Assembly: GCA_018900835.1 (NCBI GenBank) | Contig: JAHIFQ010000007.1 | Location: 1-40,890 of the forward strand | Origin: Patescibacteria group bacterium | GTDB lineage: Bacteria; Patescibacteriota; Minisyncoccia; Minisyncoccales; PEYH01 | Direction of reading: 5' to 3' | DNA: 40,890 bases | In this document: piece after piece, positions 27,012 through 40,315 of the stretch | How the letters are laid out: each line of letters opens with the position of its first letter | Numbering within the stretch: the first letter of the stretch is position 1 | Notes under the pieces: generated by a model | What the model saw: the letters and a program-made list of their open reading frames with translations, nothing else | What the model was told of the DNA's origin: nothing | Database searches by the model: none | Program-made: the position numbers and the translations under genes

Positions 27012-27068
27012 TTGTGCCGAGGGAGGGAGTTGCCCGCCCTAGGCGGGTCCGCCTTGGGCGGAAACCCT
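27012..27068. repeat. tRNA-Leu-derived 57-bp repeat, copy A
   Basis: Identical to 27316-27372 except for one base. On the minus strand it reads as a GCCGCCC-type palindrome followed by CAACTCCCTCCCTCGGCACAA. The latter copies the T-arm/acceptor 3' end of the neighbouring tRNA-Leu with one change. The GIY-YIG stop codon lies inside it. Confidence 0.9.
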
Positions 27069-27311
27069 CGAATAAATTATATTTTTATTTACAAATTCTC
27101 TCCCCTTACCACTTTTTAGAAATTTTTCCCTGGCCCGGGCATCTTTATCTGATTTATATCCTTCATAATAAATAAGCGCTAAGGGTCTTCTATTTTTTGT
27201 CGTTTTAACATCTCCTTTCCTGTGTTCCAAAATTCTATTTTTTAGATTAGCCGAATAGCCAATATATAATTTATAATCTTTCAAACTTTGTAGAATGTAA
27301 ATGTAAAACAT
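27039..27311 (-). CDS. GIY-YIG nuclease-family protein 1
   Basis: 90 residues from ATG 27311. The GIY-YIG domain is complete: YIY (3-5) and YIG (16-18) strands, the catalytic Arg26 in ANLKNRILEH, and Glu62 in AREKFLKSG. It belongs to the small single-domain UPF0213/YhbQ-like group that cuts DNA in better-known relatives; its own target is unknown. The frame is open through the tRNA gene to 27476, but that part is tRNA, so the MFYIYIL start is chosen. The last ~12 residues (SRVSAQGGPA) come from repeat copy A. It is co-directional with tRNA-Leu upstream and RNase J downstream, and bracketed by tRNA-end repeats. Confidence 0.85.
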   Translation of the reverse strand: MFYIYILQSLKDYKLYIGYSANLKNRILEHRKGDVKTTKNRRPLALIYYEGYKSDKDARAREKFLKSGKGREFVNKNIIYSRVSAQGGPA

Positions 27312-27315
27312 ATTT

Positions 27316-27372
27316 TTGTGCCGAGGGAGGGAGTTGCCCGCCCAAGGCGGGTCCGCCTTGGGCGGAAACCCT
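27316..27372. repeat. tRNA-Leu-derived 57-bp repeat, copy B
   Basis: Second copy, lying between the tRNA-Leu 3' end and the GIY-YIG start. Its tRNA-like end falls five bases upstream of the GIY-YIG ATG. Confidence 0.9.
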
Positions 27373-27374
27373 TG

Positions 27375-27458
27375 TGCCGAGGAAGGGAGTTGAACCCTTA
27401 AGCCCTTGCGAGCACTGACTCCTGAAGCCAGCGTGTTTGCCAATTTCACCACCTCGGC
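27375..27458 (-). tRNA. tRNA-Leu (anticodon CAG)
   Basis: 84 bases. Acceptor GCCGAGG/CCTCGGC, D-arm GTG...CAC with TTGGC, anticodon stem CTGGC/GTCAG with loop TTCAGGA (anticodon CAG), a long type II variable arm, T-arm AAGGG-TTCAACT-CCCTT, and discriminator A. CCA is not encoded. Its 3' end is repeated twice downstream in the flanking 57-bp repeats. Confidence 0.95.
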
Positions 27459-39822: not shown

Positions 39823-39869
39823 TTCCTTGAAAAAAAAGATAAAATGACATAAGCTTTAGATAGTAAAAT

Positions 39870-39887
39870 TTAATATTCCGCGGTAGC
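39870..39887 (+). repeat. Copy of the tRNA-Asn 5' end, left
   Basis: TTAATATTCCGCGGTAGC, identical to 40203-40220. The last 11 bases are the first bases of the mature tRNA-Asn; the first seven are its leader. A TAAAAT -10-like box (39864-39869) abuts this copy. Confidence 0.9.
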
Positions 39888-39930
39888 CCCGACGCAGGGT
39901 CGGGGCCCCGACTATAAAATACGTCGGGGC
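39886..39930. repeat. Double GCCCCGAC/GTCGGGGC palindrome
   Basis: Two hairpins share a junction: GCCCCGAC-5-GTCGGGGC (39886-39906) and GCCCCGAC-10-GTCGGGGC (39905-39930). The second loop contains TATAAAATAC, a possible -10 box for the following GIY-YIG gene. Confidence 0.85.
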
Positions 39931-39949
39931 TCAAAAACAGAATATAGTT

Positions 39950-40219
39950 ATGGCTTATGTATATATATTAAAAAGTACAAGAGACGGACGATATTATATT
40001 GGGAGCACCATAGATGTAAATCGAAGATTAAGACATCATCAAGGGGGTTATACTTATTCAACCAGGCGTTTTGGTAAATTAGAATTAGTATTTAAGCAAG
40101 AATATAAATCGTTAAAAGATGCGCGCTATATAGAAAGAAAATTGAAAAAACTTAAAAGGAAAGATTATATTGACAAAATAATCAAAGACGAATATATAAA
40201 AGTTAATATTCCGCGGTAG
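39950..40219 (+). CDS. GIY-YIG nuclease-family protein 2
   Basis: 89 residues. The GIY-YIG domain is complete: YVY (3-5), YIG (16-18), the catalytic Arg26 in DVNRRLRHH, and Glu62 in ARYIERKLKK. It is the same single-domain group as protein 1 but clearly diverged from it. The stop codon TAG is bases 8-10 of the tRNA-Asn gene, so the CDS and the tRNA overlap by ten bases; the last residues (VNIPR) are encoded by the tRNA-end repeat. Any transcript of this gene would run into tRNA-Asn and would need RNase P to release the tRNA. DNA cleavage is a family inference. Confidence 0.87.
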   Translation: MAYVYILKSTRDGRYYIGSTIDVNRRLRHHQGGYTYSTRRFGKLELVFKQEYKSLKDARYIERKLKKLKRKDYIDKIIKDEYIKVNIPR

Positions 40220-40220
40220 C
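40203..40220 (+). repeat. Copy of the tRNA-Asn 5' end, right
   Basis: The right-hand copy of the 18-bp repeat, continuous with the intact tRNA-Asn. Confidence 0.9.
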
Positions 40221-40281
40221 TCAATGGTAGAGCCATCGGCTGTTAACCGAGAGGTTGTAGGTTCGAGTCCTACCCGCGGAG
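40210..40281 (+). tRNA. tRNA-Asn (anticodon GTT)
   Basis: 72 bases. Acceptor TCCGCGG/CCGCGGA, D-arm GCTC...GAGC, anticodon arm ATCGG-CTGTTAA-CCGAG (anticodon GTT, one A-G mismatch at the top pair), T-arm GTAGG-TTCGAGT-CCTAC, discriminator G. CCA is not encoded. Confidence 0.96.
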
Positions 40282-40287
40282 CCGTAT

Positions 40288-40315
40288 TTGACAGAAAATA
40301 TTGTTGATATATAAT
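40288..40315 (+). promoter_or_regulatory. Promoter of the small coiled-coil gene, leaderless
   Basis: TTGACA (40288-40293), a 16-bp spacer and TATAAT (40310-40315), a full consensus. Six bases lie between the -10 box and ATG 40322, so the transcript probably starts at the start codon. Confidence 0.75.

Follow-up and report, generated by a model that had tools for sequence, protein, structure and literature searches.

The question raised by this locus is how a small gene encoding a GIY-YIG protein came to lie between two copies of the 5' end of a tRNA-Asn gene, and whether it arrived there as a mobile element. The locus is found near the end of the window, by which is meant the entire 40,890-nucleotide stretch of DNA from a Patescibacteria group bacterium that was analyzed. 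The cassette is probably a minimal mobile element comprising one single-domain GIY-YIG gene and its cognate palindromes, which inserted into the 5' part of the tRNA-Asn gene, had its target restored from the duplicated end, and belongs to a large family in the Patescibacteria. Both the movement and the family-wide anatomy are well supported. Together with like inserts at dozens of tRNA and structural RNA genes in these bacteria (the CPR), the 333-base insert points to a very small and largely undescribed class of mobile DNA.

Organization of the cassette at the tRNA-Asn gene

The components of the locus, in order along the window, are the following.

39827..39855, plus strand: TTGAAA-17 nt-TAAGCT, probably the promoter that first served tRNA-Asn, at present 5' of the cassette; a purely comparative assignment (G007 and G009 share its -35/-10 spacing at their empty sites), missed by the consensus scan
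39864..39887, plus strand: outer (original) copy, 13 nt of leader and tRNA-Asn nt 1-11; 24-nt direct repeat (23/24), leader matching that of the empty-site relatives
39887..39905, no strand: palindrome 1, CCCCGAC-GCAGG-GTCGGGG; motif at four places in the genome, CCGA arm typical of the nuclease clade
39906..39929, no strand: palindrome 2, CCCCGAC-TATAAAATAC-GTCGGGG; counterpart at tRNA-Phe in L020
39930..39934, plus strand: outer tRNA copy resumed, CTCAA (tRNA nt 11-15); sequence and family-wide collinearity test
39950..40219, plus strand: GIY-YIG nuclease gene, 89 aa, single domain; Pfam, alignment, AlphaFold2, Foldseek
40197..40220, plus strand: second (inner) copy of the leader and of the 5' end of the tRNA, restoring tRNA-Asn; 24-nt direct repeat
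40210..40283, plus strand: intact tRNA-Asn(GTT); ARAGORN, with Rfam in agreement (68 bits)

The initial annotation had described an 18-bp perfect direct repeat, made up of the tRNA-Asn leader and the first 11 tRNA bases, with a spacing of 333. This repeat, TTAATATTCCGCGGTAGC, is indeed present at positions 39870-39887 and 40203-40220, and it extends to 24 nt with 23 of the 24 positions identical (39864-39887 and 40197-40220). A perfect repeat of 18 bp within 1.3 kb cannot be attributed to chance. The inner and outer leaders agree at 11 of 12 positions, and the outer one, AAATTTAATATTCC, resembles the leader of the relatives (CAATTTAATATTCC in G008, a genome of the same genus); thus the duplicated stretch in the window is most simply regarded as local target sequence.

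The double palindrome and the lone GIY-YIG open reading frame with its stop codon inside the tRNA, both likewise noted from the letters alone, are also as described. The palindromes directly follow the outer repeat copy, and because the tRNA sequence picks up again beyond them, they split a partial tRNA copy instead of simply trailing it. The pattern CCCGAY..RTCGGG, for which 0.03 occurrences are expected per window, is observed just four times in the 654-kb genome, the window cassette accounting for two. The tRNA-Phe counterpart of palindrome 2 in L020 reads CCCGACT-CTGAAAG-ACGTCGGG. A function as a transcription terminator was considered and rejected, given that there is no T-tract behind the palindrome and that a terminator scan finds none; one similar hairpin elsewhere does look terminator-like.

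Removal of one repeat period had been noted to join a TAAAAT box to the tRNA. On the basis of the empty sites in the relatives, the conserved promoter is better placed at TTGAAA-17-TAAGCT, positions 39827-39855, than at that box. The consensus scan revealed a weak promoter-like match (10/12) within the end of the GIY-YIG reading frame. Right behind the tRNA-Asn gene, at 40288-40315, there is a perfect sigma-70 consensus promoter (TTGACA-16-TATAAT, 12/12), downstream of which lies a 105-aa reading frame with no Pfam match.

The sole reading frame between the repeat copies, 39950-40219, encodes a GIY-YIG protein (PF01541, E 4e-14), and its TAG stop codon is situated at 40217-40219, within the tRNA. 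The active site is conserved, with Tyr 5, Tyr 16, Arg 26, His 30, and Glu 62 invariant in an alignment of 18 relatives, as befits a member of the GIY-YIG superfamily. An AlphaFold2 model of the 89-residue protein displays a lone GIY-YIG domain (pLDDT 84.6), and Foldseek matches its fold to UPF0213, SLX1, UvrC, and I-TevI domains, the closest solved structure being UPF0213 BH0048. Close pairs of nuclease genes, for which dN is 0.12-0.24 and dS is large or saturated, differ mainly at third codon positions, and thus the nuclease gene is under purifying selection. Frameshifted copies, pseudogenes, and stacked remnants occur as well, a pattern resembling that of selfish elements. Other enzymes of mobility were looked for within the cassette. 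The Pfam matches of its protein are limited to GIY-YIG and T5orf172, with no Y1 HUH transposase and no DDE transposase among them; inverted repeats are a feature of sister clades only. With the GIY-YIG gene as the only reading frame between the repeats, there is no tyrosine or serine integrase. Nor is the insert a group I or group II intron, inasmuch as Rfam detects only tRNAs in the window and the tRNA-Asn gene is intact.

Homologous sites in relatives and further cassettes in the genome

The sigma-factor gene located 5' of the cassette is syntenic in relatives, which allowed the comparison of loci that the initial annotation had suggested. In G007 and G009, of the same genus, and in G005 and G006, of the same family, all separate species, the sigma gene is followed by a short promoter region and a single intact tRNA-Asn gene, with neither repeat nor cassette. 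In G008 the cassette is likewise absent, and the tRNA-Asn gene is split by a group I intron in its anticodon region (L012, 2990-3264; Rfam, 58 bits). The same tRNA gene has been struck by two unrelated kinds of element within one genus.

The source genome contains four GIY-YIG genes. One of these is part of a cassette that adjoins the 3' end of a tRNA-Leu gene within the window (27012-27458), the components of which are given here.

27374..27458, minus strand: tRNA-Leu(CAG), the target of this second cassette; ARAGORN, Rfam
27316..27372, minus strand: 57-nt unit, first copy, a double palindrome filling the T-loop together with the tRNA-Leu 3' end; sequence
27039..27311, minus strand: second GIY-YIG gene, 37% identical, 3'-type cassette; sequence
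27012..27068, minus strand: 57-nt unit, second copy, 98% identical, with the outer tRNA-Leu 3' end; sequence, cassette absent in five relatives

As can be seen, the gene lies 3' of the tRNA and between two palindrome-bearing copies of its 3' end. A third cassette is positioned 3' of a tRNA-Gln gene (L004; G000 contig 15, about 121.8 kb), where it terminates in 14 bp copied from the 3' end of that tRNA, the T-arm of this outer copy being replaced by a hairpin. These two cassettes demonstrate that the family uses both ends of tRNA genes. Neither is present in relatives, five of which were compared at the syntenic locus in each case (tRNA-Leu/RNase J and dnaX/tRNA-Gln). All three cassettes are thus present or absent at homologous sites in the manner of homing endonuclease genes. 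Such genes insert without flanking target duplication, whereas here the target end is duplicated. Behind a tRNA-Gln gene in another genome (L184, G001) a tRNA-like remnant stands alone, lacking a reading frame but including sequence that resembles a hairpin (GGCGGGCGGGGAGCGG...CCCTGGCCCCGCAGC); it is perhaps the scar of a lost cassette.

The family across the Patescibacteria

A search of the genome collection with the window protein yielded 22 loci. A tRNA gene begins just past the reading frame in 12 of these, and 11 of the 12 carry a 10-26 bp copy of the 5' end of the same tRNA upstream; they belong to many CPR lineages and one Omnitrophota metagenome-assembled genome (MAG). The initial annotation had recommended such a search of CPR genomes. 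Relatives adjacent to a tRNA gene located upstream were found in one Bacteroidetes MAG and one Kiritimatiellales MAG. No carriage by phages was detected, with zero matches among 50,697 phage records and none in IMG/VR by pattern.

A profile of the nuclease matches 261 of 380 Patescibacteria genomes, with up to 13 matches per genome, and the 129 best-scoring loci in the 380 genomes, chosen by protein score alone, were taken as the family set. A tRNA gene lies at most 150 nt from the nuclease gene in 84 of the 129 loci, and at 150-300 nt in nine more; because the profile was built mostly from tRNA-linked members and the loci are its top-scoring matches, this linkage of 65-78% may overstate the family-wide rate. 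The density of tRNA genes amounts to 2.56 per kb near the nuclease gene versus 0.125 per kb at 300-850 nt, and the near pairs are strictly co-oriented (99 on the same strand, none on opposite strands). The same arrangement is met with in many lineages, at genes of about 19 tRNA isotypes. This recurrence, along with the empty sites, supports the earlier suggestion of a minimal, nuclease-only mobile element that restores its tRNA gene. The specificity for 5' ends that was part of the same suggestion has to be abandoned in view of the two 3' cassettes in the source genome and of the other targets. Four loci of the set are at tmRNA genes, three are at RNase P RNA genes, 14 form a group with inverted repeats and protein genes, and 15 of the 129 have no assigned target. 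The targets of the family are accordingly structured RNA genes, mostly tRNAs at either end, and those of a sister clade are the start codons of protein genes.

The anatomy of the window cassette is that of the family. A stretch of 10 nt or more copied from the adjoining tRNA precedes the reading frame in 72% of the 5'-type pairs; the figure falls to 8.8% when other tRNAs are drawn at random, and to 18.9% with tRNAs of the same isotype taken from other loci. Breaks in the copy occur at the D-loop, where the anticodon arm begins, or at the T-arm. In 67% of cases, versus 0.6% of control positions, the break marks the beginning of a GC-rich stem measuring 7 bp or more, and the tRNA sequence is collinear beyond the palindrome in 71% versus 13% under the null. 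In several loci one tRNA arm has been swapped exactly, as in GGTAGAGCG[TCCCGATGGCCATCGGGA]AGGT, which replaces the anticodon arm. The nuclease had been envisioned as opening the tRNA at its 5' end; the palindrome positions indicate instead the hairpin arms (D, anticodon, and T). A simple duplication by staggered cuts that includes the leader was examined as a general rule and set aside. At least three leader bases are shared in just 9 of 37 loci, and most 5'-type copies start exactly at tRNA nt 1, such that this rule fits the window locus and not the family as a whole.

Inverted repeats of at least 12 bp surround the reading frame in about 20 of the 129 loci versus 0.1% of controls. Those of L140, at a tRNA-Ala gene, are 20 bp in length and come right after tRNA nt 1-11. 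In the RNase P RNA genes of L078, L113, and L114, the GIY-YIG reading frame is contained within one hairpin, between palindromic arms; judged by its position, this hairpin is apparently P3. The same arms occur again in L113, with no reading frame, in a second RNase P RNA hairpin that is taken as P12. The tmRNA-linked genes (L094, L106, L109, and L167) lie just 3' of the tmRNA, with large hairpins in between, and no outer copy was found downstream of them in the three loci examined (L094, L106, and L109). The sister clade (L111, L125, L129, L148, L159, L164, and others) consists of units of about 290 bp in which the inverted repeats CCCGTTAGAG..CTCTAACGGG enclose the GIY-YIG reading frame. The stop codon of this frame and the ATG of the protein gene that follows overlap, and ATGA(A) also precedes the left repeat in L111, L148, and L159.

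In the protein tree, which has few columns and many unresolved forks, the window falls in a clade of 25 rows (SH-aLRT 97) that covers at least 13 isotypes. Palindromes with CCGA/TCGG arms are present in 23 of 24 loci of this clade versus 11 of 119 elsewhere (p 3e-17), and other nuclease clades have other palindrome arms. The palindrome is therefore passed on together with the nuclease, and it is the tRNA that varies. Isotype tracks the protein phylogeny in part (68 changes versus 80.6 for shuffled labels, minimum 75), as does the 5' or 3' side (14 changes versus 26). Strictly tRNA-specific clades were considered and are not seen, given this incomplete clustering and the spread of isotypes within the window's clade. 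Partial clustering of isotype and side is what one would predict for elements that usually return to the same target and now and then change it.

Proposed movement of the element and its relation to known systems

A route by which such an element might move can be proposed. The nuclease, whose predicted fold is nearest to those of UPF0213 and the structure-specific SLX1, would nick or cut hairpins, namely its own palindrome and/or the arms of the target that fold into hairpins when the DNA is single-stranded or extruded. Repair of the break would then use the element locus as template, in a homing-like copying. Since the element is flanked by target-derived sequence, such copying would bring the gene along in a fixed orientation and leave a working target gene, the outer copy retaining the original promoter and bearing the palindromes and the inner copy completing the tRNA. 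Cleavage of hairpins and repair from the element locus would explain the co-orientation, the conservation of target type, and the copies that start at tRNA nt 1. The sequence shared by tRNAs in their D- and T-arms would permit occasional switching from one tRNA to another, and the duplicated leader in the window would mark a fresh jump onto a new target. Transfer between cells may contribute to the spread. Note that some points count against this model. The starts at nt 1 without leader homology in most 5'-type copies are not predicted by simple staggered-cut duplication of the target, and an enzyme that cuts native tRNA genes should also cut the restored inner tRNA.

Several known systems share features with the cassettes. 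The Seg proteins of phage T4 are encoded by free-standing GIY-YIG homing endonuclease genes, and, like these, the cassettes have a GIY-YIG gene adjoining the target and a patchy occurrence at homologous sites. They differ in their single domain with no separate DNA-binding part, their cognate palindromes, and their duplicated target ends. A precedent for restoring a displaced gene end is the mitochondrial atp6 element of Allomyces, described by Paquin et al. in 1994, in which an endonuclease reading frame and a replacement gene end reportedly restore the target and displace the old end. Its logic is that of the 3'-type cassettes, although it belongs to a eukaryotic organelle and to one protein gene, whereas the cassettes are bacterial, occupy RNA genes, and have palindromes in tRNA arms. 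The Neisseria nuclease Ssn is reported to act on single strands in a site-specific manner, with target sites repeated across the genome, and it is to the Ssn/UPF0213 group (COG2827) that BH0048, the closest solved structure, leads. The sequence and the modeled fold of the cassette protein are compatible with such a nuclease, for which the palindrome would be a candidate cleavage site. Ssn/UPF0213 nucleases are not known to be mobile elements or to be linked with tRNA duplication. In REP/RAYT and IS200/IS605 systems, transposition is hairpin-dependent and a palindrome is tied to an adjacent small nuclease gene; the cassettes have the same pairing but no Y1 tyrosine transposase, their enzyme being of an unrelated family. 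Rickettsia palindromic elements insert palindromes into RNA genes and extend hairpins there with no associated nuclease gene. The cassettes resemble them in the RNA-gene palindromes and differ in having the nuclease gene.

This last resemblance suggests an alternative, in which the palindromes are themselves the mobile units, spread into the hairpin loops of RNA genes by another enzyme, and the GIY-YIG gene merely travels along or settled at these spots afterwards. Palindromes without a reading frame do exist in the same RNA, both in the second RNase P RNA hairpin of L113 and as the extra 57-nt unit at tRNA-Leu, and the motif scan of the source genome shows a similar solitary hairpin behind a cold-shock gene. 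This explanation is nonetheless unlikely, because the palindrome sequence tracks the nuclease clade, both the sister clade and the RNase P RNA genes have the arms on either side of the reading frame itself, and the source genome has the motif almost nowhere but in the cassette. Somewhat less probable again is a nuclease gene beneficial to the host through regulation, DNA uptake, or defense, its position next to a tRNA selected for, as an example, strong co-transcription. The strict co-orientation and the purifying selection would be in keeping with it, and small GIY-YIG (Ssn) proteins of Neisseria reportedly modulate DNA uptake. Such a benefit accords poorly with the absence of the cassettes from all relatives examined at all three sites, with target switching across about 19 isotypes, and with the stacked remnants and pseudogenes, and it leaves the tRNA copies and palindromes unexplained.

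Direct repeats of a tRNA end also look like att sites, and the cassette might on that account be taken for what is left, at one edge, of a larger tRNA element that carried an integrase. That is highly improbable in light of the lack of an integrase, the many independent copies with the same content of ~300 bp, the repeats at 5' as well as 3' ends, and the palindromes at the arms. Just as little weight is given to ordinary tandem duplication of a tRNA, a common event, with a common small gene adjoining by chance; the 20-fold excess in density, the 99:0 strand bias, the clade-specific palindromes, and the empty sites all speak against it. A mobile GIY-YIG element with cognate palindromes thus remains the preferred reading. 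A broader proposal is advanced more tentatively. These may constitute a class of autonomous mobile elements of ~300 bp, possibly the smallest known, in which one GIY-YIG domain and its cognate hairpin suffice to recognize the DNA hairpins of structured RNA genes, insert, rebuild the essential RNA gene by end duplication, and spread through most Patescibacteria without killing the host.

GIY-YIG reading frames have been described in CPR rRNA genes, within inserts that do not correspond to group I or group II introns, that are mostly located at the top or base of stem-loops, and whose GIY-YIG genes were judged to be outside a homing context (Tsurumaki et al. 2024, PMC11270868). Compared by description, those inserts and the tRNA cassettes share the same bacteria and GIY-YIG genes; PMC11270868 makes no mention of tRNA, and its passages on the rRNA inserts describe neither cognate palindromes nor target duplication. 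GIY-YIG genes are also among the predicted transfers from Patescibacteria into other bacteria (PMC12455944). A partial search of the literature yielded no description of tRNA elements of this kind, which, the search being partial, is weak evidence of novelty.

If the preferred reading is right, most Patescibacteria harbor a very small mobile element, among the smallest autonomous ones known, that colonizes essential RNA genes and repairs them en route. The puzzling non-intron GIY-YIG inserts of CPR rRNA genes would have a plausible explanation, and a source would be at hand for tRNA-like pseudogenes and mis-annotated tRNA-derived peptides in CPR genomes. It would also raise the testable question of whether a single GIY-YIG domain of ~90 residues, reading DNA hairpins, is the whole mobility enzyme.

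Small GIY-YIG genes with no tRNA nearby were encountered in Syntrophomonadaceae, Bacteroidetes, and Treponema (L036-L039). Repeated palindromes such as GGCTCCGCTCAGGGAACGC border three of these (L037-L039), which perhaps represent the same pairing of nuclease and palindrome outside the CPR.
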